From the NCBI RefSeq assembly GCF_036250675.1, contig NZ_CP109592.1:3720001-3784000 (forward strand): a DNA stretch of 64,000 nucleotides, given 5' to 3'. The translations under genes were made by a program, and so were the position numbers. Shown here one piece after another: positions 31,872 to 51,114 of this stretch. Numbering within the stretch: the stretch's first letter is position 1; each line of letters begins with the position of its first letter. The notes under the pieces were generated by a model. That model saw only the letters and a list, made by a program, of their open reading frames with translations, ran no database searches and was not told where the DNA came from. This DNA comes from Streptomyces sp. NBC_01689 (GTDB taxonomy: Bacteria > Actinomycetota > Actinomycetes > Streptomycetales > Streptomycetaceae).

Positions 31872-31888
31872 CCCTTATGAGGTGCCCA

Positions 31889-32512: not shown

Positions 32513-32646
32513 CCGTGTCCCCTCTCCGTTCGACATGCTTGATCGAAAGCGGAGTGTAGGAGATGGCACTGACAGGTCATCTCGCCCAGCCGGTGGTCAC
32601 CCACAGATCACGCAGGGAGGCCGGCACCTCGCTGGGACGCACCGGC

Positions 32647-33507: not shown

Positions 33508-33567
33508 GAGTCCCCCCTCGTTCGCTCTCAGCTCGAAGCGTCGCAACAGGTAGGGCTCATGACGAGA

Positions 33568-33596
33568 GAGGCCCCGGACAAGTTGCCCGGGGCCTC
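33568..33596 (-). terminator. Terminator after int
   Basis: A 10-bp perfect stem GAGGCCCCGG/CCGGGGCCTC (33568-33577, 33587-33596) with a 9-nt loop lies 20 bp after the integrase stop codon. Confidence 0.8.
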
Positions 33597-33616
33597 GGTG
33601 GGGTGTGCAGGGTCTC

Positions 33617-34990: not shown

Positions 34991-35181
34991 GCCGCGGCCT
35001 CCAGCTCTCGCAACCACGTGGAGAAATCACTTCGCCACACCCGGAGCTCCCCGTTGGGCAGCTTGAATGCGGCCGGCCCATGCCCCAGCTCACGCCAGCG
35101 ATAGAACGTCCGGCGAGAAACCCCACCCAGCTCATCCAGCACCTGCCGCACGGTCATCAGCTCGTCGTGCTGCGAGTTCAT
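34987..35181 (-). CDS. xis: Excisionase-like helix-turn-helix protein
   Basis: The 64-residue MerR/AlpA-type DNA-binding protein has MTVRQVLDELGGVSRRTFYRWRELGHGPAAFKLPNGELRVWRSDFSTWL, the winged helix typical of AICE Xis proteins, which direct the integrase to excision. The ATG overlaps the rep stop codon (ATGA) and the stop overlaps the int start, so rep-xis-int are translationally coupled. Confidence 0.9.
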   Translation of the reverse strand: MNSQHDELMTVRQVLDELGGVSRRTFYRWRELGHGPAAFKLPNGELRVWRSDFSTWLRELEAAA

Positions 35182-36602
35182 GTCGGTTCTCCTTCCGTAC
35201 CGAGGGCGGGTTCGAGCGACGCGGACAGCCAGGCTTCGGCGGCCGAGAGACCGGTTCCGGCGAAGGCCCAGTGCGCGAGGATGTACGTCGTCTCGGGCTC
35301 GCGCTCGGGCTGTGCGGACGCCGCTTGAGCACGGCGCCAGTCCGCGCGGGCCGTGCGGAGGGCGCCGAGGGTGGTGGAGTATCGGCGGGACTTGGTGGAG
35401 AAGTGGCCGCGGAAGCCGAGCATGTGAGCCCAGGCCCGCAGCCGGAGCTCTTCTAACTCCTTGCGGGCTCCGAGCGTCCAGGCCGTTCGGATCAGCCGGC
35501 GGGCATGCTCGCTGATGTCGAGCTGGGCCAGCTCGGCGAGGAACTTCAGCGGGCGGTCGAGAGCTCCCGTCGCAGTCTCGGCGCCCTTGGTCGCGTACTT
35601 GGCGATGTAGGAGGCGACAGCCCGCTCGGTCAGCTCCCGGCCGCCGTCGAAGTCCGCGGATCGGATGGTGCGTACGTCGAGCTGACGACCGAAGGTGAAG
35701 GTGTGCGGGCGCCCGTCGATGACCGGGCCGTCCACGCGCACGTGAGCAGCGGCGGCACCGATGGCGTCGGTGAGCAGTTCGGCGGTGGCCCAAGCCGGCG
35801 GCGCAATGTCGCCGCCCTCGGGGCCATCAATGCGGATGACGGCGTGAAAGTGGACGGCGCCGCGCTTCTGGTACTCGGCGACCTTGGCAAAGGACACCCG
35901 GGCGTACTGCCGGAACGCGCGCTGTGACAGTCTGGCCCGCTTGGCGACCTCCCGGCGGAGGTAGGTGGAAAAGCGCCGCCAGAGCGGACCGGCGTGCGCG
36001 TTCCAGAGCACAGCGGCTTCGTAGTCGTAGGTGTCCGGATCGAGCGGGGTACCGAGTGCGGCATCGGCCTGGTCGTGGAGGACGCCGCAGCGACAGCGGC
36101 GGACCGAACCGGCCGGGCCGGTGGGGCGGTTATGGACCGGGCCGAAGCTCGGTGCGGTGAAGGTGGCGAAGACACGGGGGTGCGCGGCGACGCGCTCCGG
36201 GATGCCCTTGCCTCCACGCAGTCCTGAGGTGATCAGGTGGAAGGTGTCGCGGCGGTAGACCTCGGCGCAGGCAGCACAGCGCGTCGTGCGGCGGTTGTTG
36301 CAGCGGACCAGGAGGTGACCCGCCGGGAGCTCAGTGGAGTCGAGGCGGTGGAGGAGTTTGCCGACCTCTCCCGTACGGGTGTTCACGTCGTATTCGGTGC
36401 GGTGGCCGTCGAGGCGGATGGGGTTCGTGCAACCGCCGAGGCTGGAGAGCTGGCGCAGGAGTGCGGGCATGGTGCCGAGCGCGGCCAGCTCTCCGAGTTC
36501 GGTGAGCGGGGGCGGGGTGGCGCGGGTGATGATGGGTTTCTCCTTCTGGCTTCGGTCAGGAGGGGTAGGGCCCCCGGGGCGGCGGATGCTTGGCGGTATC
36601 AA
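35178..36602 (-). CDS. rep: Rolling-circle replication initiator (RepSA type)
   Basis: It starts replication of the excised circle. The 474-residue frame contains a Cys cluster (C101, C109 and C112, plus CRC at 170-172) typical of a metal-binding region. The HUH motif is AVHFHAVI (251-253), and the candidate nicking tyrosines lie in SYIAKYATKG (332, 336). The start is unclear. The frame opens at TTG 36602 with a weak site. The best ribosome site, AGAAGGAG, instead faces ATC codons at 36533-36528 just before the conserved TRATPPPLTELGELAALGTM. It ends overlapping xis. Confidence 0.9.
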   Translation of the reverse strand: MIPPSIRRPGGPTPPDRSQKEKPIITRATPPPLTELGELAALGTMPALLRQLSSLGGCTNPIRLDGHRTEYDVNTRTGEVGKLLHRLDSTELPAGHLLVRCNNRRTTRCAACAEVYRRDTFHLITSGLRGGKGIPERVAAHPRVFATFTAPSFGPVHNRPTGPAGSVRRCRCGVLHDQADAALGTPLDPDTYDYEAAVLWNAHAGPLWRRFSTYLRREVAKRARLSQRAFRQYARVSFAKVAEYQKRGAVHFHAVIRIDGPEGGDIAPPAWATAELLTDAIGAAAAHVRVDGPVIDGRPHTFTFGRQLDVRTIRSADFDGGRELTERAVASYIAKYATKGAETATGALDRPLKFLAELAQLDISEHARRLIRTAWTLGARKELEELRLRAWAHMLGFRGHFSTKSRRYSTTLGALRTARADWRRAQAASAQPEREPETTYILAHWAFAGTGLSAAEAWLSASLEPALGTEGEPT

Positions 36603-36632
36603 GGCCGTCCCGGGGGTCTGGCGTGCAGCGGC

Positions 36633-36878
36633 TCAGCGGCGGTGCTGGTCGCGGAGCATCGAGCGCAGGACCACGGCGGCGATGGCCACGGAGATGGCTG
36701 TGACGGCGACGGCGGCCAGGAGCGCGGTCAGTACGACTCCGCCGGCGAGGACGGCCGCGACCGCTCCCGTGCTGATGGAGATCTGCGGTGCCGCAGGACG
36801 TACGGGTACCGGGTCGGCCGGAGTGTGGGTGTGAGCGGGCGGCGGGGTCGGGTTGTCGGGGTACTTGGGCAGGAACAC
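36633..36878 (-). CDS. SpdD-like plasmid spread protein
   Basis: This 81-residue small membrane protein has a Pro-rich N-terminus (FLPKYPDNPTPPPAHTHTP), then a long hydrophobic stretch (about 40-72) with Ala/Val/Leu, and an Arg-rich end. That is the pattern of SpdD/SpdB proteins that help spread conjugated plasmids along the mycelium through septa. GTG 36878 has AAGGAG 9 nt upstream. A KorSA-type operator lies 20 bp before the start. Confidence 0.8.
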   Translation of the reverse strand: MFLPKYPDNPTPPPAHTHTPADPVPVRPAAPQISISTGAVAAVLAGGVVLTALLAAVAVTAISVAIAAVVLRSMLRDQHRR

Positions 36879-36897
36879 AGCGAAGGTCTCCTTATCT

Positions 36898-36907
36898 ACT
36901 CGTCTAG
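36898..36907 (-). promoter_or_regulatory. KorSA-type operator half-site upstream of spdD
   Basis: ACTCGTCTAG matches the left half of the palindrome at 39846. It overlaps the end of the preceding gene and lies 20 bp upstream of the SpdD-like start. Confidence 0.6.
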
Positions 36908-37098
36908 TTATGTGAGCCGTTTATGACGTCCACGCCGGAGCGCGTGCCGGAGTCGATGGCCGGGGCCATGAAGGTGCGCGAGAGCAGGAAGCCGAACAGA
37001 GCGATCACGACGACGATCCAGGTGCGGACGCCGAGGAACTTGACCGCTCCCCAGGCGATTAGGCCGAGCACGAGAACGAGTGGCAGGCTGACGGTCAC
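36904..37098 (-). CDS. Small two-helix membrane protein, transfer region
   Basis: The 64 residues form two adjacent hydrophobic segments (about 5-22 and 27-44) and a short polar tail ending SGVDVINGSHN. Small membrane genes at this place in AICEs are counted among the spread functions, but the exact role is unknown. GTG or ATG 37098 follows AAAGGACCT. It is spaced 15 bp after the next gene upstream and sits in the same operon. Confidence 0.75.
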   Translation of the reverse strand: MTVSLPLVLVLGLIAWGAVKFLGVRTWIVVVIALFGFLLSRTFMAPAIDSGTRSGVDVINGSHN

Positions 37099-37113
37099 GG
37101 AGGTCAGGTCCTT

Positions 37114-37305
37114 TCAGCGGACAGGGCAGCGGTGGGTGCGGGCGGCGAGTTCGGCGGCGGCGCGGCTGTCGTAGTCCGCGGAGAATCCGCAGCGCGGCGC
37201 TGTGCAGGCGGCGGTGTGCTTCTCACGGCCCCGGCCGTCGTAGGACGTGCCGACCTGAACGGGGCCGATGCGGGTGACGGAGCGGAAGCGGCGGTTGGCG
37301 GTCAC
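37114..37305 (-). CDS. Mobile element transfer protein (small, Cys/His)
   Basis: This 63-residue basic protein has IGPVQVGTSYDGRGREKHTAACTAPRCGFSADYDSRAAAELAARTHRC. Its three Cys and two His could form a zinc finger. This family is found in Streptomyces AICEs and is annotated as a transfer protein; its biochemical action is not known to me. AAAGGAG-type ribosome site upstream; 12 bp after the DUF2637 gene. Confidence 0.82.
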   Translation of the reverse strand: MTANRRFRSVTRIGPVQVGTSYDGRGREKHTAACTAPRCGFSADYDSRAAAELAARTHRCPVR

Positions 37306-37317
37306 GCGGATCTCCTT

Positions 37318-37938
37318 TCAGAGCTGAGCGGCGATGGCGTCGGCCATGGGTGCGGGGACGCCGAGTCGGGCGCGGAGGGTCGGGGTGTCGATGGCCTCTC
37401 CGGTCCGCGTCCGGTGTTCCGCGGCGACCTTTCGGGCGTGCTCGACCAAGGCGGCCGGGACGGACACGACGGGCGGAGCGGGGGTCGGTTCGGGCACCGG
37501 TTGCGCGGGGAGCGCCGGAACGAGTTCGGACGCGTCCACCTGGGCCTCGATGGTCTCGGTGTCCTCGTGCGGTGACGGTGCCGAGTGGGCGAGGAGCGTT
37601 CCGCCGAGGAAGGCGACCGCGGGCCAGCCCGCGACGAGGATGCGGAGCCAGGCCGGGACCTGGTCCAGGTCGAGGAGCCCGGCAGTGGCGACGTTCGCGC
37701 CGAGGGAGGCGACCAGCGCGATGACGAACCAGCACCACCCGGCCGCCTTCGCGTCACCGGCCCGCAGTCGGCGCCATGCGGCGACGAGCAGTAGGTCGAC
37801 CGAGATGGGATACGCCCATGCCTTCCACCCGTCCTGACCAGCCGCCGAGGCGACGTCGTGCAGGTGGGCGAAGGACAGCGCGGCAGCGATGACCGCTTGG
37901 ACGAGCACCGCGTCGACACGGGCCAGTTGGGCGCGCAT
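37318..37938 (-). CDS. DUF2637 membrane protein (SpdB-like)
   Basis: The 206 residues start at ATG 37938 with AAGGAG 7 nt upstream; an ATG at 37965 has no site. Four hydrophobic segments cover about residues 10-115, with the family motif FAHLHDVASAAGQDGWKAWAYPISVDLLLVAAWRR. A Pro-rich linker and a C-terminal helical domain (EHRTRTGEAIDTPTLRARLGVP) resembling a small DNA-binding helix bundle follow. DUF2637 proteins accompany the TraB translocase in AICEs and are thought to take part in intramycelial spread. Confidence 0.85.
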   Translation of the reverse strand: MRAQLARVDAVLVQAVIAAALSFAHLHDVASAAGQDGWKAWAYPISVDLLLVAAWRRLRAGDAKAAGWCWFVIALVASLGANVATAGLLDLDQVPAWLRILVAGWPAVAFLGGTLLAHSAPSPHEDTETIEAQVDASELVPALPAQPVPEPTPAPPVVSVPAALVEHARKVAAEHRTRTGEAIDTPTLRARLGVPAPMADAIAAQL

Positions 37939-38022
37939 GCTGCGGCTCCTTCCGGATTCAGGCATGGCAGGGGTAGGGACGTGGCGCGAGAGGTCACGCC
38001 GGCCGGAGTGGAGGGAAAGGAA

Positions 38023-39399
38023 TCAGTCGGTCACAGGGCGAGGCTGGACAACCGGGGCCGCAGACTCGACGGGCCGTACGGGCACGTCGGGTCGAAAGGG
38101 CTTGAGCGCGGGCAGGTCAGGCACCATGTGCGCCGACTCCCGGCAGATCTCCGCGGCATCGCCGAGGGAGAGGTACGGCGTGCGGATGCGGGACCAGCCG
38201 CCGGATGAATCGCCCGCGACGGCGAGACCGGGCCGCTCGGGTGCGATGGCGCAGGCGGCGGAGACCGCTTCAGGGGCGATGTCACCGAGAGCCATTTTGG
38301 CCGAGGCTTCATCGTTGACGCGGTGGCAGACGCGGCCGGTCAGCTGGGCCCGGAGCATGGTCGCTCCCTTGCCGAGTTCGGCGCCGAAGCGCTGCCCGCA
38401 CACCTCCAGGTAGATACCGGCAGCACGGCCGAGCTGGGCGAGCCGGATGAGCTGGGTGACCATCTCATCCCGCCGGTCCTCGTCCTTGCGCGTGGCCACG
38501 AGGAAGAGTTCGGCCACCTCGTCGACGAACAAGACGATGGGGACGGGGCGTTCGTCCTCGGGAAGCCCCCAGACGTCCGAGGTGATCTCCTCGTCGGGCG
38601 TGCCCGGGGCAAGACCTTGGCGTGCCTTGATCAGTTCGTACCGGTCCTCCATCTCTTGGATGAGTGCGGGCAGCAGTTCGGCCGCCTGCTCGGGGTCGGT
38701 GGCGAGGGCGGAGAGTCTCGCCGCGAAGGGGGACAGTTCCACGCCGCGCTTGCAGTCGATGCCGACCAGGGCGACGGGTTGCGGGGCGAGTCCGGCAACG
38801 AGGTGACGCAGATACATGGACTTGCCGGAGAGCGTTGCTCCGAGGGTGAGTTGATGGGGAACGGTGCGGTAGTCGCGTACGAACGGGGTGGCGTCCTCCC
38901 GCAGGGCCACGGGCACTTCGAGAAGCCCGGACGCGACCTTGCGAGGCATACGCACACGCCGCAGTACGTCGAAGCCGACGAGCCGCAGTTCGACCACGCC
39001 CGGCTTGACGGTCGTGACGTACACGGCGTGAACCCCCCAGGCGTGCCGGAGCCGTTCCGCCGAGGCGGCGACGTCTGCCGGCTCCTGACCGGGCGCGAGC
39101 CGAAGGCGAATGCGTAACCCGGTCGAGGTTGGCCGGATGATGCCCCGCCGCGGTGGTACGGGCCGAACTTCACGGCGGGTGGTGGCCTTGACCGCCAAGA
39201 CCCGCAGCCGGGACGGAGCCACAGTCAGGCCGCACGCCTCCATGACCGAGCTGTACGAGCCGAGGAGCCGGGCCGTGGATATCGGGAGGCCGACCGTGGA
39301 CCAGTAGACGCCGGGATGCCTGGCCCGGGTGTAGGCAGCCCCGCCGCCGAGTGCGGCGACAGGACCACCCACCTCCAGGAGCGTTGTCAGGTCGGTCAT
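38023..39399 (-). CDS. FtsK/SpoIIIE-type DNA translocase (TraB/TraSA)
   Basis: It is the single protein needed for conjugative transfer of double-stranded DNA in Streptomyces elements. The 458 residues start at ATG 39399. An N-terminal variable region is followed by the motor domain, with Walker A GATLSGKS (187-194) and Walker B PIVLFVDEVAELF, then QLIRLAQLGRAAGIYLEVCGQRFGAE typical of FtsK. No clear membrane helix is seen beyond a short N-terminal hydrophobic patch. The start codon overlaps the upstream gene's stop (TGATG). The C-terminal 60 residues probably include the DNA-recognition winged helix. Confidence 0.93.
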   Translation of the reverse strand: MTDLTTLLEVGGPVAALGGGAAYTRARHPGVYWSTVGLPISTARLLGSYSSVMEACGLTVAPSRLRVLAVKATTRREVRPVPPRRGIIRPTSTGLRIRLRLAPGQEPADVAASAERLRHAWGVHAVYVTTVKPGVVELRLVGFDVLRRVRMPRKVASGLLEVPVALREDATPFVRDYRTVPHQLTLGATLSGKSMYLRHLVAGLAPQPVALVGIDCKRGVELSPFAARLSALATDPEQAAELLPALIQEMEDRYELIKARQGLAPGTPDEEITSDVWGLPEDERPVPIVLFVDEVAELFLVATRKDEDRRDEMVTQLIRLAQLGRAAGIYLEVCGQRFGAELGKGATMLRAQLTGRVCHRVNDEASAKMALGDIAPEAVSAACAIAPERPGLAVAGDSSGGWSRIRTPYLSLGDAAEICRESAHMVPDLPALKPFRPDVPVRPVESAAPVVQPRPVTD

Positions 39400-39755
39400 C
39401 AGGCCGTGGCCCCCATGGCGGCCGGGAACATGGCCGGGGTGACGGCGGCGGAGCGGTAGGCGATGCCGTGCCGCTGCTGGCCGTTGAACACGCTCTCCCA
39501 CGGCCGGGCCACGAGACCCGGCAGCGAGATCGGTGCGCCGAGCGCGAGTCCCTCGGACACCCCGCTCTCGGGCACAGTGACCTTGATCAGAGAGGACTCC
39601 CCTTCCTCGATGTAGACGACGCCGATCGTCATCAGTGCCTCACCGGTGTTGACGTCCTTGGCGATCTCGCCGGTCTGACGGTCACGGACCTTGGGCTCGG
39701 GTGCCTCGGTCAGCAGGATCGTCGCGGCCGAGGTCTCCACACGGATGGTGCGCAA
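39399..39755 (-). CDS. SCO3933-family regulatory protein
   Basis: This 118-residue, beta-rich soluble protein belongs to a family regularly placed just before traB in Streptomyces elements: VETSAATILLTEAPEPKVRDRQTGEIAKD, then LPGLVARPWESVFNGQQRHGIAYRSAAV. The start is TTG 39755 behind AGGAAGAA. Its role is presumed regulatory. It heads the transfer operon, directly downstream of two KorSA-type operators, and is coupled to traB by a one-base overlap. Confidence 0.82.
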   Translation of the reverse strand: MRTIRVETSAATILLTEAPEPKVRDRQTGEIAKDVNTGEALMTIGVVYIEEGESSLIKVTVPESGVSEGLALGAPISLPGLVARPWESVFNGQQRHGIAYRSAAVTPAMFPAAMGATA

Positions 39756-39770
39756 GAGTTCTTCCTATCT

Positions 39771-39861
39771 ACTCGTCTATACAAGATGCGGCCTTCGAAC
39801 CCGATCTCTCCGGGAACGCGGACCACCCTGCCACACAACTTGCCCACTCGTCTATACGAGT
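39771..39861 (-). promoter_or_regulatory. Paired KorSA-type operators before the transfer operon
   Basis: ACTCGTCTATACGAGT (39846-39861) is a 16-bp palindrome with perfect 6-bp arms. ACTCGTCTATACAAGA (39771-39786) is a second, degenerate copy. They lie between the end of the GntR gene and the start of the SCO3933-family gene, so they probably repress the traB-spd-rep operon. Confidence 0.75.
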
Positions 39862-39911
39862 ATGCCTGTTGGCGTGTACGAGTCCGAAGAAGTGGCCTCG
39901 CGCACCGCCTG

Positions 39912-40697
39912 TCAGGTCGCCGGGAGCTGGTAGGAGAGGACGTACGCGTCCGCCGCCATGACGGTGTCGCAGACCTCGACGGCCCGTCCCTCCGTGTCGT
40001 ACGCGGTGCGGATCAGGTGAATCACCGGCACACCAGAAGCCAGCCGGAGTGTCTTGACCTCGGACGGCGCGGGCATCCGGGCGCGGATCTCCTCCTCGAA
40101 GTGGTCGAGGTGGTGTCCCAGCTCCTCAAGTCGGGCGTAGATGCCGCCGGGGCCGGGGTTGGGTTCGGCGATCTGCGTGCCGCGCGCGATGTCGAGCGGG
40201 AGGTACGACGTGGCGAACTCGACCGGTCGGCCGTCGAGCAGGTACCGGCGCCGGCGGGCGAGCACGCGCCGTACGGAGCCGAGCCGAGTGGAGATGTCCT
40301 GACTGGCCTTCTCCTCCTTGACCTCAAGGCTGTCGACCTGGGGGTGACTGCCCGCAGCGTCCGCCTCGACGATGAACGCGGACTTCCCCTGTTCGCGGTG
40401 GCGTCGGGCGAACCGGTCGGAGGCCAGCCGGCGGACGGGCGGACGCGGCCGGACGAAGACGCCCTTCCCATGTTCGGCGGCGACCAGGCCCTCACCCTGG
40501 AGGATGGAGAAGGAGTTGCGGACGGTCATCCGGGATACGCCGTAGTGCTCGACGAGCTCAGCTTCCGAGGGGAGTTTCTCGCCCTCCTTGAATCGCCCAC
40601 GGTCGATGGCCTCGCGCAGCTGGTCAGCGATCTGCCGGAACACCGCACGATCGCTCGTGGGGTCCAGATCGCCGAGCAGGGACGGAAGTGAGGTCAC
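39912..40697 (-). CDS. GntR/HutC-family transcriptional repressor (KorSA-like)
   Basis: The 261 residues contain an N-terminal winged helix (about 20-80: AVFRQIADQLREAIDRGRFKEGEKLPSEAELVEHYGVSRMTVRNSFSILQGEGLV) and a C-terminal UTRA ligand-binding domain (about 95-255). In pSAM2 the corresponding KorSA represses pra and its own gene, keeping the element integrated. GTG 40697 has AAAGGAG upstream. It is divergent from the Nudix gene with a shared 83-bp control region holding a TCTAGACGAGT operator. Confidence 0.92.
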   Translation of the reverse strand: MTSLPSLLGDLDPTSDRAVFRQIADQLREAIDRGRFKEGEKLPSEAELVEHYGVSRMTVRNSFSILQGEGLVAAEHGKGVFVRPRPPVRRLASDRFARRHREQGKSAFIVEADAAGSHPQVDSLEVKEEKASQDISTRLGSVRRVLARRRRYLLDGRPVEFATSYLPLDIARGTQIAEPNPGPGGIYARLEELGHHLDHFEEEIRARMPAPSEVKTLRLASGVPVIHLIRTAYDTEGRAVEVCDTVMAADAYVLSYQLPAT

Positions 40698-40714
40698 GAG
40701 TACTCCTTTAGGTA

Positions 40715-40725
40715 TCTAGACGAGT
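40715..40725. promoter_or_regulatory. KorSA-type operator between korSA-like and Nudix genes
   Basis: TCTAGACGAGT repeats the right half of the palindrome at 39846. Its position 18 bp before the repressor start suggests autoregulation and perhaps joint control of the Nudix gene. A similar ACGAGTATACGAG lies at 41263-41275, over the start of the next plus-strand gene. Confidence 0.65.
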
Positions 40726-40780
40726 GGGCGAGTGTTGTTGCTACGGTGGAGAGCCTAGCGATCTGAGAGGGCCGAGGAAC

Positions 40781-41212
40781 GTGAGCACTGACCGTCCCCA
40801 CTCCGTGAGCGTTGCCGGAGTCATCGTCGACGACCAGGGCCGGGCCCTCTTGATCCAGCGGCGCGACAACGGCCAGTGGGAACCTCCGGGTGGCGTTGTC
40901 GAGCGGGAGGAAACCCTCCCCGAGGCACTCCAACGCGAAGTCCTCGAAGAAACCGGCATCAAGATCGCGCTTCCCGCGACCCTCACCGGCGTCTACAAGA
41001 ACATGACGGGCTTGATCGTCTCTCTTGTCTTCCGCTGTGAAGCCGCCGATGGCTCGCCCACCACCGGGGACGAGACCCGCGCACTGCGTTGGGCCACCCG
41101 CGAAGAAGTCACCGACCTCGCCGATGAGGCGTACGCGATCCGCGTCCTGGACGCTCTCGACGCGGCATCCCCGCCGGCTGTCCGCGCCCATGATGGCGTG
41201 AAACTCGTCTAG
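40781..41212 (+). CDS. Nudix hydrolase, Pif-like
   Basis: The 143 residues have a complete Nudix box at 38-60 (GGVVEREETLPEALQREVLEETGI: G-x5-E-x7-REVLEETGI), so a nucleoside-diphosphate-linked substrate is hydrolysed. In pSAM2 a Nudix protein, Pif, blocks redundant transfer between cells already carrying the element. The shared motif and place beside the repressor support the same role here. GTG 40781 is chosen with GAGGAAC upstream; a longer frame to 40727 would cover the operator region. Confidence 0.88.
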   Translation: MSTDRPHSVSVAGVIVDDQGRALLIQRRDNGQWEPPGGVVEREETLPEALQREVLEETGIKIALPATLTGVYKNMTGLIVSLVFRCEAADGSPTTGDETRALRWATREEVTDLADEAYAIRVLDALDAASPPAVRAHDGVKLV

Positions 41213-41258
41213 CCCGAACCCGCTGCACATGGCGGCCTACCAGCACGAAGGAACTTGT

Positions 41259-41687
41259 ATGCACGAGTATACGAGCACTGCGCGGGTCTGGGGCCTCACT
41301 TGCCCAGGATTTCCGGAAGAGGTGAGCAGGGCCCGCCGCTGGACACGGGACATCCTGCGTGGGTCGCCGTTGGCCGAGGACGCCGAGTTGATCGTGAGCG
41401 AGCTGAGCGCCAACGCGATCCTCCACACCGCCAGCGGACGGCGGTCGGGCAGCTTCCATCTGGCTCTCGCGGTCTCTTCCCAGGTGGTCGCTCTATCGGT
41501 CACAGACGACGGCGGCACCGGGACAGCGCCGAAGGCCGAGCACGCCGACCAGGACGCCACACACGGGCGGGGCCTGGGCATGGTCAGCTTGATCGCCCAC
41601 CGGGTCGTGATCCACGACAGCCAGGCCGGCCACACGGTCACCGTGGAACTCTTCACGGGTGCCCAACCGGGAGGTCACCGGTGCTGA
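41259..41687 (+). CDS. HATPase_c-type ATP-binding protein (anti-sigma-factor-like)
   Basis: This 142-residue single-domain GHKL kinase resembles the RsbW/SpoIIAB proteins abundant in Streptomyces: ELIVSELSANAILHTASG (N box), VTDDGGTG (G1 box), GRGLGMVSLIAHRV (G2 box). It probably binds ATP and phosphorylates or sequesters a partner; target unknown. ATG 41259 has AAGGA 7 nt upstream. An operator-like ACGAGTATACGAG overlaps the first codons, so it may belong to the KorSA regulon. It overlaps the next gene by 7 bp. Confidence 0.88.
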   Translation: MHEYTSTARVWGLTCPGFPEEVSRARRWTRDILRGSPLAEDAELIVSELSANAILHTASGRRSGSFHLALAVSSQVVALSVTDDGGTGTAPKAEHADQDATHGRGLGMVSLIAHRVVIHDSQAGHTVTVELFTGAQPGGHRC

Positions 41688-42034
41688 CGTCGACAACTCC
41701 CGAGGAATTAGCCGAAGCGGGGCCGGGACAGGGTGGCACCTACCGCTGCTGGGCCGTGGCATACCCGCTGCACGAGACCAGCTCGATCCTCCTGGGATCG
41801 CACGATGCGACGAGTCCCCGCCTGGCCCTGCGGTGGCTACGTGAACGCACGAGGAACGTCACGGACCAGCTCGACACGGCATACGCCCAGCCGGGCCGCT
41901 ACTGGCTAAGGGACGAGCGCGAACACGAACGAGCCCTTAGCTACCTGATCACGGGCACGGCCTACCAACTCACCCTGCACGACGAGAACACGCGCTACGT
42001 CCTCGTGACCTACCCGCCCGGAGCGACCTCGTGA
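41681..42034 (+). CDS. Hypothetical AICE protein
   Basis: This 117-residue soluble protein belongs to no family I can name. It is rich in Arg, Leu and aromatic residues, with GTYRCWAVAYPLHETSSILLGSHD and YLITGTAYQLTLHDENTRYVLVTYPPGA. GTG 41681 has GGGAGG 6 nt upstream and overlaps the HATPase stop by 7 bp, so it is translated with its neighbours and may work with the ATP-binding protein. Confidence 0.75.
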   Translation: MLTSTTPEELAEAGPGQGGTYRCWAVAYPLHETSSILLGSHDATSPRLALRWLRERTRNVTDQLDTAYAQPGRYWLRDEREHERALSYLITGTAYQLTLHDENTRYVLVTYPPGATS

Positions 42035-42408
42035 ACGGATACATCCGCGGCTTCTGGTGCGAATGCTGGACCGAAGACCTCACCAGGGCAGAGCAGCCGG
42101 CCCTTCACAGTTCGTTCGACGCGTACTCGGCCAGCCAGGCAGACCGCTGGATAGCGATCGCACTCCGCACCATCACGCCAGCGCTGGACTCCAGGGCGTC
42201 CGACGAGGCCTGGGAGTGGCTGTACGAGGGCCGCATCCAGACGAGGAGAGCTCTCCTGCGCTCGGAGCTCTGTACAGTCACGATCAACCAGGGCGGCATA
42301 CGCATCTCTTGGACGGCCCGACCAGCGCTCTTCCTGCCCCTGGCACACAGGCGGGGCCTTGAACTTCCGTCCTGCGCATATGACTTCAAGCCCCATGCGA
42401 CCGACTGA
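42031..42408 (+). CDS. Hypothetical AICE protein
   Basis: This 125-residue protein contains paired Trp/Cys near the N-terminus (GYIRGFWCECWTEDL) and ends in the polar segment ELPSCAYDFKPHATD. No known domain. GTG 42031 overlaps the previous stop by 4 bp (GTGA), so the three genes from 41259 form one coupled operon on the plus strand, opposite to the transfer operon. The gene marks the end of the conserved element core before the cargo. Confidence 0.72.
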   Translation: MNGYIRGFWCECWTEDLTRAEQPALHSSFDAYSASQADRWIAIALRTITPALDSRASDEAWEWLYEGRIQTRRALLRSELCTVTINQGGIRISWTARPALFLPLAHRRGLELPSCAYDFKPHATD

Positions 42409-42791
42409 GTTACAACTTTCTCTACTGGTTCAAGGCGGCTCGCTCCGCTCCCCGCGCGCGGTACGGCCCCCGGCCGGGCCTGCGCTCCTGTCTCCGCCCC
42501 GCTCCAGCCCGGCCGGCGCCCGTACCGCGCTCGGAACAATCAGGCCGCTTGAGGCAAGAGGAGGGGTACGTCGTGGCTGGGGCGGTCGGCTCCACGGCTT
42601 TACGGAGCCACTTTGGCGCGAGCCTCGAAGATCATGGCCCCCAACGTCGTGCTTTACCGGGCAGGTCCACAGACTGCCCGACGCGCCGGAAGCTTACGGG
42701 GCCATGATCACTCGCACCAAAGCAGCGCCACCCCAAAGCCGCTCCGCCGACCTCGGCAGCACTCGCCACCAATCCACCGACGACACATTCG
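42409..42791. other. Non-coding segment with large inverted repeat; candidate ori/clt DNA
   Basis: There is no convincing gene in 383 bp. A 23-bp inverted repeat with two mismatches (42456-42478 against 42508-42530, 29-nt loop) contains GCGCGGTACGG. Weaker outer pairing links CAAGGCGGC at 42431 with GCCGCTTGAG at 42545. Position between element core and cargo, and a large hairpin, are what one expects for a replication origin or the cis-acting transfer locus read by TraB. Function not proven. Base composition turns AT-richer after about 42600. Confidence 0.55.
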
Positions 42792-43682
42792 TCAATCGAA
42801 GAGAGTCAAGCTCTGCTGCTGTTCATTCAATCCACCATCGGGGATCTCGTATGACGTGAAAACGAGATCTTGACTGCCGCGCTTCTGTGACTTCAGATTA
42901 ATGTCACGGCGCGTAGCCATTGACGTGACGTGAAAACTCTTGAAGATCTCCCTGGTGAGCGGAGTCTCGCTGTTCGACATGGTTACAAAAACACCGCGAT
43001 CCGCGGCCTCTAGCATCCCTGTCGCCAACCGGTGCTGATCTTCTTCCCCGAATTGTTCGGGAGTATACCGCTTAAAGTCGGCCCAGCCCCCAAGGGGGAC
43101 ATATGGAGGGTCAAGGTAGACCCAATCCCCAGCTTGCGCCTCCCTCAATGCATTGGCGAAATCTCGATGCTGAATCTCTACACCTTGAAGCGCTTCAGCG
43201 GCAGCAAGCAGGGTCTTTCGATTGTAATATGGGCGGTCATACTCGCCATAAGGGACGTTGAATTGACCCTTCTTATTGACCCGCCAGAGCCCACGAAATC
43301 CGGTCTTATTTAGAAAGACTACGCGCGCTGCACGATCGACATCAGACATCTCACGGACGTCCTTCGATCGAAGCTCATTATAGAACTCCCGGTTATTTGG
43401 CATTTCATCGAGCAGCGCCATGACCTTCTCTGGGTCATGCGCAACCTGCTGAAAGCAGATAACCAACTCAGGGTTCGCATCTGAGAGAGATGCCTCACTC
43501 GGACCCAGCTCGAAGAAAACTGCAGCACTCCCCATAAAGGGTTCAAAATACCGCCCTTCGAACGCAGGCGCGAGGGCTACGAGCTGATCCGCATACCGCG
43601 TCTTCCCGCCGACCCACTTCAGGAATGAACGCCCCTCAGCGAGGCGACTGCTACTCATAGTCTGTAGACCCATCGTCGTCAC
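42792..43682 (-). CDS. Dam-family DNA N6-adenine methyltransferase (D12 class)
   Basis: It methylates adenine using SAM, presumably as the protective partner of the nuclease at 43933. The 296 residues contain motif I FLKWVGGKTRYADQL (20-34), FEPFMGSAAVFFEL (47-59), the Dam-family stretch NKTGFRGLWRVNKKGQFNVPYG (125-146) and the catalytic DPPY (191-194). The start is GTG 43682 if leaderless, else ATG 43673 or 43658. Codon use and GC are distinctly lower than in the core genes. The specificity cannot be read from sequence; GATC-like sites are common in this group. Confidence 0.92.
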   Translation of the reverse strand: MTTMGLQTMSSSRLAEGRSFLKWVGGKTRYADQLVALAPAFEGRYFEPFMGSAAVFFELGPSEASLSDANPELVICFQQVAHDPEKVMALLDEMPNNREFYNELRSKDVREMSDVDRAARVVFLNKTGFRGLWRVNKKGQFNVPYGEYDRPYYNRKTLLAAAEALQGVEIQHRDFANALREAQAGDWVYLDPPYVPLGGWADFKRYTPEQFGEEDQHRLATGMLEAADRGVFVTMSNSETPLTREIFKSFHVTSMATRRDINLKSQKRGSQDLVFTSYEIPDGGLNEQQQSLTLFD

Positions 43683-43688
43683 TCGGGC

Positions 43689-43696
43689 AGTATACA
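43689..43696. promoter_or_regulatory. Symmetric overlapping -10 boxes for divergent methylase and controller genes
   Basis: The sequence AGTATACA contains TATACA for the plus strand (43691-43696) and TATACT for the minus strand (43694-43689). In each direction exactly 6 nt separate the box from a GTG start (43703 plus, 43682 minus). Transcripts would therefore begin at or next to the start codons, i.e. be leaderless, and the two polymerases could not bind together. Inference from geometry. Confidence 0.65.
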
Positions 43697-43702
43697 GCCC
43701 TT

Positions 43703-43927
43703 GTGGATGATCGTTCGGTCTTGGTCAGGTTTGGCCAAAACGTTAGGAAGCTCCGCGTCGAGGCCGGGCTATCGCAAGAGCAATTGGCAGACATTGCACG
43801 CCTTCACCGCACCTACATCGGGAGCGTGGAACGTGGTGAGCGCAATATTAGTCTGGTGAATATTTACCGACTCGCGGAAGCGCTTGGTGTCAGCTCAAGG
43901 CATTTGCTACCTGACGACGAGGGATAG
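43703..43927 (+). CDS. XRE-family helix-turn-helix protein, probable R-M controller
   Basis: The 74 residues are essentially one Cro/C1-type domain: FGQNVRKLRVEAGLSQEQLADIARLHRTYIGSVERGERNISLVNIYRLAEALGVSSRHLL. This size and placement between a methylase and a nuclease fit the C-protein class that times restriction gene expression. GTG 43703 has no ribosome site and lies 6 nt after a -10 box, consistent with leaderless translation, common for C proteins. It is 5 bp upstream of the nuclease gene. Confidence 0.88.
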   Translation: MDDRSVLVRFGQNVRKLRVEAGLSQEQLADIARLHRTYIGSVERGERNISLVNIYRLAEALGVSSRHLLPDDEG

Positions 43928-43932
43928 ACGAA

Positions 43933-44826
43933 GTGAGACGCCAAGACGGTTTCGCCGCTCCACGCTGGGATGATCCATTCTGGCACGTTGTGCGAATGCT
44001 CGCCGATCAGCCGGCGGCACAGCGTAGATACGCCGATGCAATTTCGCCAAGCCAAATCATGGATCTCCTTCGTTCGGCAGGCACGCCCGCAGCAGACGCA
44101 TTGGCTCTGTACCTCCAGAAGCGGGAGGACGCATTGCAGCGCCTGTCTTCATATTGGAGCAAGCGGCGCGAAGTGTCTGAAACGGCTTTCAGCCTCATGC
44201 GGACTGAGGAGGAAGCCAAGAGAGACTACGCAACCGTCTCCGATCAGGTCCTGCAAAGCTACGGCGTACAACTCGCCGGCTATCACGCATCACCGAAGGT
44301 TCTCGTCAACACTGTAGACGCGGTTATTTACCGGGAATGCAAAAAGGCAAATGTTCCCGTAAATACCAATCCGCAGAGTCGCGCCGCCCTTTTGTCCGAT
44401 GAGCATATCTGGGTTTCCCCAAGACGCCTTGACGGCGCTCTCCCTGACCTTCTGAACCCAGTTGCGCTATGGGAGATTAAAGAGTACTGGGGAAAGACAG
44501 GCGGCGGTTCAAAGATGTCTGATGCCATCTATGAACTGCACCTGGTCGGACTCGAGTTGCGCATGTTCGAGGCCGAGTTCGGAGTTCACGTAAACCACTA
44601 CGCCATCCTCGATGGTCTGGAACAGTGGCGCGCAAGGAAATCCGACGTCCGGCGTACGGTTGACCTTCTATACATGGGGTTGCTCGATGAAGTCGTTGTG
44701 GGTAGCGAAGTAATATCCGAGTGGCCGCGAATTGTTATGGAGAACATCCGTCGCGCTGAGCGTGCCGACACACCTAGGGTGCCGAGGCAGGCTGTCGCTG
44801 ACTCTCTGTTCCCAGAACTCGGTTAA
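43933..44826 (+). CDS. Probable type II restriction endonuclease (PD-ExK motif)
   Basis: The 297 residues have no family I can name with certainty. The assignment rests on context (methylase and controller adjacent) and on a catalytic pattern P171-D172 followed after 8 residues by E181-I-K183, within GALPDLLNPVALWEIKEYWGK. The N-terminal half is helical with many charged residues (KREDALQRLSSYWSKRREVSETAF), possibly for DNA recognition or dimerisation. GTG 43933 has AGGG about 10 nt upstream. Base composition matches the methylase rather than the element core. Confidence 0.75.
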   Translation: MRRQDGFAAPRWDDPFWHVVRMLADQPAAQRRYADAISPSQIMDLLRSAGTPAADALALYLQKREDALQRLSSYWSKRREVSETAFSLMRTEEEAKRDYATVSDQVLQSYGVQLAGYHASPKVLVNTVDAVIYRECKKANVPVNTNPQSRAALLSDEHIWVSPRRLDGALPDLLNPVALWEIKEYWGKTGGGSKMSDAIYELHLVGLELRMFEAEFGVHVNHYAILDGLEQWRARKSDVRRTVDLLYMGLLDEVVVGSEVISEWPRIVMENIRRAERADTPRVPRQAVADSLFPELG

Positions 44827-44973
44827 GTCAGACTCGCTTCTCGGCAGAGAAGAATCGACTGAACTCGGGTCCCCAATTGTAAGCGCCCTGATTACAGGGT
44901 ACCGAATAGTCGACATGTGCTCACATGGCACGCAGTGTCCTCGGTCAGCCGGCTGCGCCAAGGCACAGGTCTG

Positions 44974-45010
44974 AAAGTATCGCTCGTCACACCGTGACGA
45001 GCGATACTTT
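44974..45010 (+). terminator. Strong terminator after the endonuclease gene
   Basis: A perfect 17-bp stem (44974-44990 with 44994-45010), 3-nt loop, followed by TT and preceded by AA, so it could act both ways. It lies about 150 bp after the endonuclease stop. Confidence 0.88.
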
Positions 45011-45080
45011 TTCAGCACACTCCACGGCCCTCCGCATGCCCGATAAGGTGTGACTTCAGCTAAGTGGCGTGTAGATCATA

Positions 45081-45117
45081 TGGAACTGGAGGAGCCAGCT
45101 CAGCTCCTCCAGTTCCA
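45081..45117 (-). terminator. Hairpin after the AIPR gene
   Basis: A perfect 15-bp stem (45081-45095 with 45103-45117) with a 7-nt loop lies downstream of the minus-strand AIPR gene. There is no T tract on either side, so it may terminate weakly or protect the 3' end of the mRNA. Confidence 0.6.
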
Positions 45118-45255
45118 GCAGCAGTATCAACAAGCTGCTCAACGCTCAACACGATCAGTCAAGGCTGACCTGCGGCTCGGCCGGGCATTCTGCGATCAGT
45201 CCCAGTCGCCAATGGGAAGCTGTCGCTCGGTGGTCTGAGCGCAGGCCCACCTGCT

Positions 45256-46941
45256 CTAGCTATCGCGCAGCTTCGTCAGGGCGCTTCGTGCAAGCCCTGC
45301 ACACTTAGTTGCATTCTTGAAAAGGCTAGCGGGGTATCCTGGATAGTCGGCATCAGCCACATCAGTTACCACTGTCAGCGTCTTGGCCACTAGTCCCGGA
45401 ACTTGACGAGCCTGGCTATTCCAGTCGAAGCGAGGGTCATCAATACTCTTCGTGTCTAGCTGGCGGAAAACCAGATGCAGGATGAAGCGGTTTCCGTGGA
45501 CAGCCATTCCGCGAGCACGCCCCTCGAGAGACTGCAGGGTGTCCCCTAGCAACTCTTCAACTTGTCGCATGACACGAACTGATCGCCAAATACGCTGATA
45601 GGTTATCGAGGGGTTGAAGAGCTTTTTATACGCGCCCCGGTCCCCGGTATCCCACAACCGGCTGATCTCACGCTTAGCTTGCGTTGACAGGCTTACGTCA
45701 GGATTCGCGCATGAGAGAGCGATTGTAGCTTCAGTGACACTGCATCCGGTTTCTGGGGCGGGGTCCGCCTCTCCGGACTTATAGATGTATGTCAGACCCT
45801 CCACGAGAAACTCGTTCTTGATACGAGATTGTTCCGGATCGAGAGCCAAAAAATCTCGCCCGGTGATTCTGTTTTGAGTATTCGTAGCTCGCGTAACACT
45901 ATTCGCGAATTCGGACTCTGCTCCTTCGAGGGAAATGAAGCGTACGGTCACTTTCGCTTTACCGAGATCGACACCTAGTCGCGCGGCCTTTGCGATCGAA
46001 CCTACTGTCTGTGCTCCATTTACGACATCCGCCCCGGAAAATGTGAATGCGCCGATCCTTCGATCCGCTCCATAGGCAGGCGACTTAGAGATTTTCTCGC
46101 AGAGGATCGTAATTCCGTTATTGTAGTACCAGAATTCTGCGGGACTCTCGCGGAGAGTATCGATCAGCGTTTCGTTGACTTCCGAATTATTTAGCACGAC
46201 ACGAACATTCTTGCTAAAAAGAGCAGTGCCGTGCTCCCTGTGCCACTCTGCAACTTGCGCCGCGGAGACTTGACCGTAATAGGCTACCGGCTCTCCCGCG
46301 AACTGCCCCCAGTCTGCCAGCTCAACCGAGAGATCAATCTTCGGCAATTGGTGATCGTCCAGGAGTAGCTTGTGAATCCCCGACTGGCCTAGGTAGTTGA
46401 AAGATGCTACTTCATCCGGCGTGTTGAACGTCTCATCAAGAAACGTTTCCATGCGGTCACGTATATCCGAAGAGCAATCGCTTACGCCACTATGAGCCAC
46501 GATGATCTCGATCTGCATCTTGGGATCTAGTAGCGCCTTTTCGATTTCCTTCTGGCGAACGCGAACCTTCTCGTTAAACCTCTCCCACCTAAGTTGCACT
46601 AGGTCTGAGATACCCTCGCGAAACTTGATGAAGTCGTCAAGTGCAAGACTTCCTCGACCGTCCTGCGACCACTTGGACTGGACAACCAATAGTCGATCTT
46701 GCTCCAAGTTGAGCGCAATGGCATCAATCCCATTATCCCCAGATCCGTCAGTCACTGTTGCAGAAGCCGACTCCCAGTCCAATCCTCCTCGCTTAGCAAT
46801 TACGAAGGCGGCCAGCGCGCGACTCAGGTGATTTACGTATACGTGCGCGGGTTCGTGAGCCGCGAGGTCGCTTACATCAACAAAGGGGAAGGTTGTCTCC
46901 TCAACACGGCGCTGAATTTGAGTGAGTTGCAGCAGTCCCAT
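45256..46941 (-). CDS. AIPR (abortive infection phage resistance) family protein
   Basis: The 561 residues carry an N-terminal region with a restriction-like pattern GSGDNGIDAIAL...LLVVQSKW (Asp73, Gln88-x-Lys90), like Mrr-type nucleases. The AIPR core is recognised by VRVVLNNSEVNETLIDTL, EFWYYNNGITILCEKI, VVNGAQTVGSIAKA and TRATNTQNRITGRDFLALD. AIPR proteins, first linked to the lactococcal AbiR system, act in phage defence, probably by nucleic-acid damage on infection. ATG 46941 has GAGGAC closely upstream. Base composition is low-GC like the adjacent restriction genes, and it reads toward them. Confidence 0.88.
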   Translation of the reverse strand: MGLLQLTQIQRRVEETTFPFVDVSDLAAHEPAHVYVNHLSRALAAFVIAKRGGLDWESASATVTDGSGDNGIDAIALNLEQDRLLVVQSKWSQDGRGSLALDDFIKFREGISDLVQLRWERFNEKVRVRQKEIEKALLDPKMQIEIIVAHSGVSDCSSDIRDRMETFLDETFNTPDEVASFNYLGQSGIHKLLLDDHQLPKIDLSVELADWGQFAGEPVAYYGQVSAAQVAEWHREHGTALFSKNVRVVLNNSEVNETLIDTLRESPAEFWYYNNGITILCEKISKSPAYGADRRIGAFTFSGADVVNGAQTVGSIAKAARLGVDLGKAKVTVRFISLEGAESEFANSVTRATNTQNRITGRDFLALDPEQSRIKNEFLVEGLTYIYKSGEADPAPETGCSVTEATIALSCANPDVSLSTQAKREISRLWDTGDRGAYKKLFNPSITYQRIWRSVRVMRQVEELLGDTLQSLEGRARGMAVHGNRFILHLVFRQLDTKSIDDPRFDWNSQARQVPGLVAKTLTVVTDVADADYPGYPASLFKNATKCAGLARSALTKLRDS

Positions 46942-47430
46942 GTGTCCTCGGCCTCAATCGATCGCCTACCAGGGGAGGCTAAGAGTAGTAGCAGTTGCGG
47001 CATCCAGGGGTGGTCGTACGAAGATTCGTGCCGCAGCGGACTTGTTCGAACCCTACGGACCAGCCTCAGCTACGGGCGCGTGAACAAACCATGGCGGTTG
47101 AAGGAGGTAGGGGTCGTTACCGCAGCGATCGCCGGCTGCCTATGACGCTCGATCCTCAGCTACAGCCCTGCCCTCGTGTAGGTAGCCATCGAGTGTCATG
47201 GGATCCTCGTCGAGCGCGCGGGCTCACCAACATGGCGGTTGACTGCTGCCAGCGACTGTTGTCGTCTATCTGACGGCTTGCTTTGTCCCAGATGCGGTCC
47301 AGACTTTACAGCCGTTGCAGTTCCCCGATGCCAGCGGTCGGGGAGTCTGAGTCGTGGACCACCTGTGGACAAGTCCGGCTCTCCAGCACGGTGAAGAGGC
47401 TCAGACCTGCACCGACCCAGTGCATCGCAT
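46942..47430. other. Non-coding right end of the element (attR arm)
   Basis: There is no supported gene. CATGGCGGTTGA occurs twice (near 47090 and 47231), each preceded some 20-70 bp upstream by CTCAGCTAC-type sequence, a diverged duplication. These could be integrase arm-binding repeats next to attR or a decayed gene copy. Confidence 0.45.
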
Positions 47431-47476
47431 CGGCCTCCGGAGCCGTGTGCGCAGGTTCGAATCCTGCCGGGGGCAC
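47431..47476 (+). repeat. attR: second copy of the 46-bp att repeat
   Basis: It is identical to 31826-31871 over 46 bp, covering the tRNA-Arg 3' half; the 5' half of the tRNA is absent. It marks the right end of the intact element and the left end of the remnant that follows. Confidence 0.92.
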
Positions 47477-49618: not shown

Positions 49619-50206
49619 GCTCGTGTCACGAGGCCGGGGTCCGCGGCGCGGCGGGGAACCGCCGCGCCGCGCGGCCTCACACCTGGACCGGCTCCGTTCC
49701 GGCGGCCGCCGGAACGGCGGCGCCCGCGGCGCGGCGGCGGACGGGGACGACCGGAGTACCAGTAGCCGGCGACCATCAGTGCGATGACGACGACGGTCTC
49801 GGTGGCCCACACCCAGGCCGCGGCGGTGGCCGTCTTGGGCGGCACCCTGCAGGCCGGTGGAACCGCTCCTGAGCGGATCGCTGCCGCTGTGACTGCGCCG
49901 GGGAAGACGCAGCCCACTTGTCGCAACCGGCCCGACTCGATCCTCCCGCCGCCGTAGGGTGCGGCGGCGCGGGCACCCCCGCATAGGTTGGCCGTCTGAT
50001 CCAACGCCCCGCGACGAGGATCAGCCGATGCGCGGCAGGACCACCATCCGCCTGTCGAGCCCGCCGACGTCGCCCCGACAGCCGCGCAGCGGGTGGTCCG
50101 CCGCTGTCTGCCTCCTGCGCACCGCGATACAGGAGGACAGCCCACAGCTCCCGGGATCAAGGAAACGGCTGACCAGAGCCCATCTGCAAGCCGAACTCCG
50201 ATGGTG
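49619..50206. other. Gap with possible decayed small membrane ORF
   Basis: I see no intact gene. On the minus strand near 49850-49760 a stretch reads PPKTATAAAWVWATETVVVIALMVAGYWY, a single membrane helix. A plausible ending (PVVPVRRRAAGAAVPAAAGTE... stop at about 49679) lies in a different frame, suggesting a frameshifted small gene. The rest (49980-50200) shows nothing. Confidence 0.35.
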
Positions 50207-50323
50207 CTCCGTAGCCGTGTGCGCAGGTTCGAATCCTGCCGGGGCACCCCTTATGAGGTGCACAGAGACCCCGTCACCAGCGGAAACGCGGCGGCCGGGG
50301 TCTTCGCGTATGTGCAGGCGGAT
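50207..50323 (+). repeat. Third, diverged att copy with tRNA terminator flank
   Basis: 50207-50246 matches the tRNA-Arg 3' half with one substitution (CTCCGTAG for CTCCGGAG) and one lost G in the acceptor strand. The match continues through the TTATGAGGTGC hairpin and the GACCCCG...CGGGGTC terminator to about 50323. That is nearly the same 117 bp as follows attL at 31871. It probably marks the original chromosomal right junction. Confidence 0.85.
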
Positions 50324-51114
50324 CGCGCTCGGGCCGTCGCGTGCCTGGATCGTCCGGATGAGCGGAGGGACGTAGTTCCACCTCCCGTACCGCTACGGCA
50401 GAAGGTGGCCCGGGGCTGCTGGGCGCCGTGGGGCCGCGTGGCTCGGGATCCCTGCTGGGGCGGTTCCTCGTCCCGGCTGCGGTCGTCAAGGCGCTGTCCG
50501 TTCGGCGCCGTTGTGGCTCCTTGCCCGGGTCGGGAACGAGGTCTCCCGCTGTGAGCCGTTGGGTATGGGGCGGCGGATGCCGCTGACTGGTCGATTCCAT
50601 CAGGGTCCGTACGCGTCGGCCCTACGGCGTCGGGTATCTCCAAGTGGTCTGCGCTGAACAGGTGTCCCGCCCTGTTCGGCTCACCGGCGAAGACCCTCAG
50701 GGCCTTGCACCCATCGATCGCCCCACGCGGCCTGCGCCCACCTCCTGGGCTCGTTGACGGGCCTCGAGTGGGCCTGCCCCGTGTTCTGGCCCTCTCCCGG
50801 CGCCGAGTGGTCCGTCGTCCTTGGTGAGTGCGACTGCCTCTCCGGCGGCGGCCGTGTGCGTGTACTTCCGACGTCTTCCGCGTGCTCTCCGACCCTCGGC
50901 CGGGCCGGCCCCGACCCCGGACGGTGCGCCCCCGCGTGGGAGCCGGCGTTCTTTCGGGCCCGGCGTGCGCCGGCGCGGGGGCGGGAAGGGTGGGGCTCTT
51001 TTCCGCTTCGGGGAATGCAGGGTGTCGGCAGGTGAATGGTGCGGGCATCTATGCAATGGGGGTTTTCTCGTCGAGAGTTGAAGAGGGAAAGCACCAGAGA
51101 AAGTAATCGCTCGT
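50324..51114. other. Non-coding region before the ketosynthase gene
   Basis: In 791 bp I find no gene with codon structure or ribosome site; several frames on both strands are Arg/Pro artefacts. The last 130 bp before 51115 are AT-richer and likely contain the promoter of the ketosynthase gene. Confidence 0.45.

Follow-up and report, generated by a model that had tools for sequence, protein, structure and literature searches.

Two divergent promoters probably share one -10 element in a Streptomyces restriction-modification locus whose C operator apparently occupies the first methylase codons

Several described restriction-modification (R-M) systems, the accounts of which were available to us in part, come close to the locus reported here. 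EcoRV has divergent methylase (M) and controller-nuclease (C-R) genes with overlapping promoters, just one of which can be occupied at a time, and its C boxes lie over the C-R promoter; the C transcript is described as not leaderless, and the available parts of the accounts describe no leaderless M (PMC5333194, PMC11736437). A direct action of C on the EcoRV M promoter (PM) is given in PMC6237814, whereas the same parts of PMC5333194 and PMC11736437 give promoter overlap only. In PvuII, M and C are divergent, and the methylase initiator lies near that of C and overlaps a C box (PMC3850674); a figure legend in PMC5333194 shows this system as convergent instead. The C-dependent transcript of PvuII is leaderless (PMC2997769), and C.PvuII-like boxes have the form GACT-tat-AGTC, which occurs twice with a GT at the centre (PMC4824078). 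Kpn2I, too, has divergent M and C promoters that overlap; its R is transcribed separately, and a C box within the coding region of the C gene acts as a roadblock (PMC6237814). The C mRNA of AhdI is leaderless (PMC5333194). AhdI and Esp1396I are described as convergent, with separate control regions for M and C-R, and an OL/OR arrangement of C sites has been described for Esp1396I (PMC4041747). The bidirectional promoters of Warman, Grainger and colleagues have a shared -10 with reciprocal -11A and -7T, and 18 bp is the commonest spacing of their transcription starts (PMC10268837; PMC12825309). Promoters of this class are expected to have mapped starts 7-25 bp apart.

The window, i.e. the whole stretch of DNA that was analysed (64,000 nucleotides of the 9.96-Mb genome of Streptomyces sp. 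NBC_01689, contig NZ_CP109592.1), contains a divergent locus of this kind. Its genes and their surroundings are listed below in window coordinates.

42792..43682, minus strand: M, Dam/DpnII-like D12 class adenine methyltransferase (PF02086, E 3.3e-53), start GTG at 43682
43703..43927, plus strand: C, controller protein, C.BclI/C.AhdI-like HTH (PADLOC Control_protein, E 2.4e-27)
43933..44826, plus strand: R, restriction endonuclease candidate (DUF7687; PF24736, E 3.3e-59), preceded by GAGG
31799-47476: pSAM2-like integrative element, with the R-M genes near its right end
31799-31872: tRNA-Arg(ccg) of the element
31822-31871 and 47427-47476: 50-bp direct repeat of the element (98%)
33617-35017, minus strand: integrase-like gene of the element (Pfam score below cut-off)
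35178-36602, minus strand: RepSA of the element
38023-39501, minus strand: FtsK/SpoIIIE of the element
39912-40697, minus strand: GntR of the element

The gene identities were established by sequence and comparison. M matched the DpnII methylase in the PDB (2dpm, E 1.5e-58), and through this match it resembles GATC methylases. The best PDB matches of C were C.BclI (2b5a, E 2.6e-18) and C.AhdI (1y7y, E 5.6e-18). Residues 158-269 of R matched PADLOC REase_II (E 5.3e-25), and its D167, E181, and K183 were invariant in an alignment of 30 sequences that included that of the window; no solved structural relative of R was found at E<=1. A small HTH controller of the C.AhdI/C.PvuII kind thus lies upstream of R, the two genes being on the same strand with 5 bp between the C stop (43927) and the R start (43933). 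Judged by these matches, the locus is a C-protein-controlled type II R-M system (M, C, and a candidate R) on a pSAM2-like integrative element. Since the R-M genes lie inside such an element, entry into a naive host is a real event for a switch located here.

Some further features of the element were seen. A NERD nuclease-related gene (32647-33546) lies near its left end. A third copy of the att-like repeat (80%) is found at 50199-50331, followed by 91 bp that are 90% identical to 31865-31955, just past the tRNA; this copy is possibly a tandem or remnant element. Beside R lies an AIPR/AbiU-like gene (45256-46941; PF10592; PADLOC AbiU, E 8.6e-33), relatives of which (34-37% identity) also occur in two loci of the R family (L022 and L031), and this gene may travel with the R-M type of the window. 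When eight element genes were searched around the R-M loci of relatives, only these AIPR relatives were obtained, the window's own copies aside, and a search for element genes at 15 chosen relative loci found nothing.

Relatives of the locus were sought in several collections. Searches with the nuclease hit 4 of 394 genomes of the class and 2 of 392 genomes of the genus, as well as 27 loci in GTDB contigs and 2 in IMG/VR. A further sampling of Streptomyces again gave 2 of 392 genomes, the window's own genome being one of the two in either case. Among 816 and 223 records of plasmids or phages there was no close relative of M, every one being below 60% identity. The M start was compared in eight rows, set side by side and read by eye, which represent seven distinct loci: the window, G057, Kitasatospora, S. 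pilosus, Nocardiopsis, Saccharothrix, and Actinokineospora. These loci are mutually related, so that conservation counts among them are not independent. Between the M start and the C start lie 20 bp in the window, and 21 bp in the five relatives that have a C; in the Actinokineospora locus no C match was found, and 131 bp separate the M start from R.

The features of the region between and within the two divergent genes are as follows.

43649..43681, plus strand: entire C operator including the outer TG and CA, TGCTACTCATAGTCTGTAGACCCATCGTCGTCA; M codons 1-12
43652..43662, plus strand: left C-box OL, TACTCATAGTC, from the conserved columns of 59 non-redundant loci
43667..43677, plus strand: right C-box OR, GACCCATCGTC, from column conservation and the window sequence; degenerate, overlapping the proposed C -35
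43665..43670, plus strand: proposed C -35, TAGACC, 17 bp from CAGTAT, between and over the boxes
43680..43682, minus strand: M start codon, its TG forming the outer CA of the operator, and predicted M transcription start
43688..43693, plus strand: C promoter -10, CAGTAT (-11A at 43689, -7T at 43693), 9 nt from the GTG
43689..43694, minus strand: M promoter -10, TATACT (-11A at 43693, -7T at 43689); TANNNT in 7/7 distinct loci
43700..43703, plus strand: predicted C transcription start, at 43700 if judged by spacing or at the first purine, 43703

The main feature of this region, missed by the first-pass annotation, is that the first codons of M are, as far as comparison can tell, the C operator. 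Its boxes OL and OR occupy M codons 2-11. By sequence match it is a two-site operator with a central GT, lying upstream of C and overlapping the putative C -35, with a degenerate OR; this form agrees with the published C.PvuII-like boxes of the GACT-tat-AGTC type, as given in the part of PMC4824078 available to us. The same kind of element is found far from the window. Twelve further loci with C and M were examined (eleven GTDB contigs from outside the actinobacteria and one IMG/VR contig), and in 11 of them TGATACTYATAG occurs before C within a longer element like TGATACTCATAGTCTGTAGACTGTCAAGTATCAT; among the twelve, it is absent from the IMG/VR locus, L039. By this comparison the window's TGCTACTCATAGTCTGTAGACCCATCGTCGTCA is the same kind of element as that of the distant loci.

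The operator was also scanned for among all C loci. Of 168 C hits, 22 duplicates were dropped, leaving 146 unique loci, and the best match to the 18-mer TACTCATAGTCTGTAGAC was recorded from 220 bp upstream to 30 bp inside each C match. At least 13 of the 18 positions matched in 100 of the 146 unique loci, among which near-identical loci remain, and the 18-mer was composed from some of the loci later scored with it. When four loci that had been fetched by the motif itself were left out, the count was 96/142. One shuffled control per locus gave a maximum of 12; with twenty per locus, 13 of 2840 reached at least 13, the maximum being 16. Of the 89 unique loci that matched at 14/18 or better, a non-redundant set of 59 was kept after removal of truncated loci and of those more than 75% similar; loci with lower matches were left aside.

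Two shorter motifs were tried as well. GTCTGTAGAC alone as a C-box was replaced by OL and OR once distant loci were compared. Matches to CTCATMGTCTGTAGAC in IMG/VR were rejected as stand-alone proof, since their number, 25, is about that expected by chance on a rough estimate from the collection size; eight of these 25 loci have a C relative (L045, L051, L053, L057, L060, L063, L064, and L068). In a separate observation, ten loci of one actinobacterial genus (L078-L087) carry three tandem C-like genes about 300 bp apart, each with its own operator match of at least 13/18, a possible controller cascade; the open reading frames were inspected in L078.

The first-pass annotation had placed the GTG of M at 43682 (minus strand) and that of C at 43703 (plus strand), with 20 bp between them and the palindrome GTATAC, which provides TATACT on the minus strand and TATACA on the plus strand, each 6 nt from its own GTG. 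It had also stated that both genes lack ribosome sites. All this was confirmed in the sequence, where GTATAC lies at 43690-43695 and no piece of AGGAGG of at least 4 nt precedes the M or the C start (R has GAGG). Its proposal that M is leaderless gained support from the relatives. At the position of 43682, five of the seven distinct loci have GTG and two have ATG, so that a start codon stands there in 7/7, and TANNNT lies upstream of it in 7/7 also, 6 nt away in the window and 7 nt in the other six, with varying middle bases (TATACT, TAGACT, TACACT, TACACT, TAGACT, TAAGAT, TAGGAT). Even the Actinokineospora locus, without a C match, keeps its ATG with TAGGAT 7 nt upstream. Such a box, TANNNT 6-7 nt before the codon, precedes just 0.2% of the 3397 ATG or GTG codons in the window; the M box is above chance. 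No -35 for the M promoter was seen in the sequence. A -10 at about 6-7 nt from the start codon and the missing ribosome site are as expected of a leaderless gene, and the conservation among the relatives is good evidence for a leaderless M that starts at 43682. In mycobacteria, a 5' ATG or GTG is necessary and sufficient for leaderless translation, according to the available part of PMC4633059; to carry this rule over to Streptomyces would be an extrapolation.

The leaderless M would be a feature of the window's clade and not of C systems generally, since in just 17 of the 59 non-redundant loci is the M-frame open for at least 60 codons (some of these frames not being methylases), and since L089 has GGG and L090 has ACG where the M start codon would be. 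From the same 17/59 it follows that the operator element is preserved as DNA even in places where it is non-coding.

For the C promoter, an A/T pair corresponding to -11A and -7T stands at a fixed distance from the operator in 43 of the 59 loci (offsets 37/41 in 30 and 38/42 in 13). The background for such a pair at offsets 42 to 79 had a mean of 3.2 and a maximum of 7 loci per offset. The pair was found in 42/55 loci when pattern-fetched loci were left out, and in 38/51 when the window's clade was left out too; 16 of the 59 loci have no C -10 pair at offsets 37/38. The position of the C -10 at CAGTAT, like that of the M -10, is thus established by comparison. The T, G, A, and C of TAGACC are conserved at 1.00, 0.97, 0.93, and 0.76 among the 59 loci; these bases also belong to the operator, and TAGACC is put forward as a putative -35. 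The predicted C leader in the 43 loci is 0 nt in 18, 1 nt in nine, -1 in two, 2-4 nt in nine, and at least 10 nt in five. In the window and its clade it is 3 nt by spacing. In 5/6 clade loci, however, the bases at +1 to +3 are pyrimidines and the first purine at or after them is the G of the GTG, so the real C start may be this G. Of the proposal that C is leaderless, what stands is that comparison predicts either a leaderless C or a leader of about 3 nt, a start at the GTG being possible; the box assigned to it, TATACA, was probably the wrong one.

The two -10 elements are reciprocal. CAGTAT and TATACT share their -11A and -7T, positions 43689 and 43693 serving both directions, and the predicted M and C transcription starts are 18 bp (43682/43700) or 21 bp (43682/43703) apart. 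Any NANNNT is partly symmetric, so that reciprocal -10s alone are no proof of two-way use. The base giving M its -12T is A in 6/6 clade loci (which are related) vs 11/67 others, or 4/41 non-redundant others; this marking points to selection for the M direction.

It had been proposed that GTATAC itself serves both genes as a single symmetric box, with TATACT toward M and TATACA toward C at 6 nt each, and that exclusion between polymerases alone sets the timing. The literal geometry is there in the window, and a C start at the GTG, the first purine in 5/6 clade loci, would suit it. However, the palindrome is found in the window only: in the five loci that have a GTNTAC core, the window among them, it reads GTATAC, GTCTAC, GTGTAC, GTGTAC, and GTCTAC. 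The symmetric 6-nt/6-nt spacing is likewise confined to the window, the M-side spacing being 7 nt in the other six loci. TATACA was rejected as the C -10, since its -11A is present in the window only and its -7T in 0/5 loci (the hexamer becoming TCTACA, TGTACC, TGTACA, or TCTACC), while the conserved C -10, CAGTNT, lies 3 bp to the left, at the CAGTAT position or 1 bp off in the 43/59 loci given above. Neither the palindrome nor the C box TATACA is above chance; the window has 22.5 six-base palindromes per kb. The C operator would, moreover, account for the timing. Of the mutually exclusive initiation claimed earlier, the close overlap stands, the promoters overlapping too closely for two polymerases; exclusion as such is a steric inference, with precedents in EcoRV, Kpn2I, and Escherichia coli bidirectional promoters. 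According to PMC12825309, five tested bidirectional promoters had basal activities too low for competition, and strong activation in one direction could repress the opposite one. These findings favour C-dependent activation as the timer over exclusion alone. A methylase-before-nuclease switch is thus retained from the first-pass annotation with a different cause: polymerase exclusion alone gives way to the operator on the M codons, which explains the timing better. Taken together, we regard the symmetric box with exclusion alone as quite unlikely.

Three other readings concern M itself. M could be translated from ATG 43658 or from ATG 43673, a third in-frame start absent from the first-pass annotation, with a short leader, GTG 43682 being no start. 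Both ATGs are in frame and 43658 lies inside the conserved OL; against this, two relatives, Nocardiopsis and Actinokineospora, have ATA at codon 43673, the latter also has ACG at codon 43658 (while its 43682 codon stays ATG), neither ATG has a ribosome site, and it is 43682 that is GTG or ATG in 7/7 loci. This reading is unlikely, and a conserved start at 43658 with its own ribosome site, which the first-pass annotation had named as counting against its proposal, was not encountered. M might instead be transcribed mainly from a promoter inside the 225-bp C gene that lies upstream of it, the -10 beside GTG 43682 being incidental, which would fit the lack of a visible -35 for the proposed M promoter; yet a ribosome site, which M lacks, would be expected if it had a leader, and TANNNT is kept in all seven loci, even in Actinokineospora where C was not found. 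This, too, is rather improbable. Finally, the methylase N-terminus (..TMGLQTMSS), which is kept in the six methylases compared, could be conserved for the protein and not for the DNA. The conservation, however, sits at synonymous sites: in six methylase genes, same-residue pairs used the same codon in 97/110 cases in codons 2-11, vs 1130/2917 from codon 13 onward, and codons 2-11 rank top of 292 overlapping ten-codon windows for synonymous identity. The same bases also occur upstream of C where the frame closes soon or encodes a different methylase family; PF01555 methylases (L005, L128, and L089) carry the operator in their first codons, reading ..LQTMS or ..RQTLS. Conservation for the protein is therefore very improbable.

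We thus consider it probable that the region is one switch, with a single shared -10 serving two divergent promoters and with the C operator in the first codons of M, through which C-R and M are controlled. In the switch that we infer, the -10 would read TATACT toward M, and the methylase mRNA would start, without a leader, at the G of the methylase GTG. In the C-R direction the -10 would read CAGTAT, a weak box, with the -35 TAGACC embedded in the two-site operator, and the C mRNA would be leaderless or have a 3-nt leader. On entry into a naive cell, M would be made at once and C-R at a basal rate only. Accumulating C would bind OL as a dimer (centre 43657) and activate C-R, and the activated C-R promoter would compete with the M polymerase for the shared -10. 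The operator would correspond to +2 to +34 of the M transcript, so that C bound there would also be expected to block M initiation or elongation, in the manner of a roadblock. C-R would then be limited by a second dimer, bound to OR (centre 43672) on top of the C -35.

A GATC is present at 43709-43712, -27 to -30 of the predicted M start, and one is kept near this place in 5/6 clade loci with C, as read by eye. Given the resemblance of M to GATC methylases, methylation by M at this site might feed back on M.

More widely, there may be an actinobacterial class of R-M systems in which the methylase transcription start, its start codon, and the operator edge coincide, and in which C shuts off a leaderless methylase via its coding sequence while switching on C-R from the same -10. 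An LQTMS-like N-terminus would then be a protein-level scar that marks operator-in-methylase systems, another methylase family included. We put the chances of this generalization at about even. In the window, two start codons, two -10s, and a two-site operator would fit into less than 60 bp (43649-43705, leaving out any M -35). If true, this would show how far R-M timing can be compressed, and it would offer a simple case of a single switch on which competing polymerases, leaderless translation, and roadblocking all act, carried by a mobile element that has to enter naive hosts. A conserved methylase N-terminus would be explained as a DNA-binding constraint, which is useful for correcting the annotation of methylase starts.

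When compared with the systems described at the outset, to the extent that their accounts were available, the window shares with EcoRV the divergent M and C-R, the C boxes over the C-R promoter, and an overlap of the M and C-R core promoters that is visible in the sequence; it differs from EcoRV in its apparently leaderless M and in a C transcript predicted to have no leader or one of about 3 nt. Like PvuII, it has divergent genes, an M initiator near that of C and overlapping a C box, and boxes of the same type with GT at the centre, and its C transcript may be leaderless as well. Unlike PvuII, both boxes are inside the M frame and M itself is apparently leaderless. The overlapping divergent promoters recall Kpn2I, as does, from sequence alone, the position of a box in a coding region; here this region is that of M instead of C, and C and R are 5 bp apart. 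The C protein is C.AhdI-like and the OL/OR arrangement is that described for Esp1396I; the window differs from both systems in being divergent, with a single control region. With the bidirectional promoters it shares the 18-bp spacing of starts, predicted here; unlike in those, each direction leads into a coding gene that would have little or no leader, and one of these genes contains an activator site. In the literature searched, coverage of which was partial, we came across neither a leaderless methylase nor a C operator that takes up methylase codons. Overlapping M and C promoters (EcoRV, Kpn2I), a leaderless C (AhdI, PvuII), and a C box in a coding region (Kpn2I) are each known. A leaderless methylase with the operator as its first codons looks new, being made of known kinds of parts that are unusually tightly packed.
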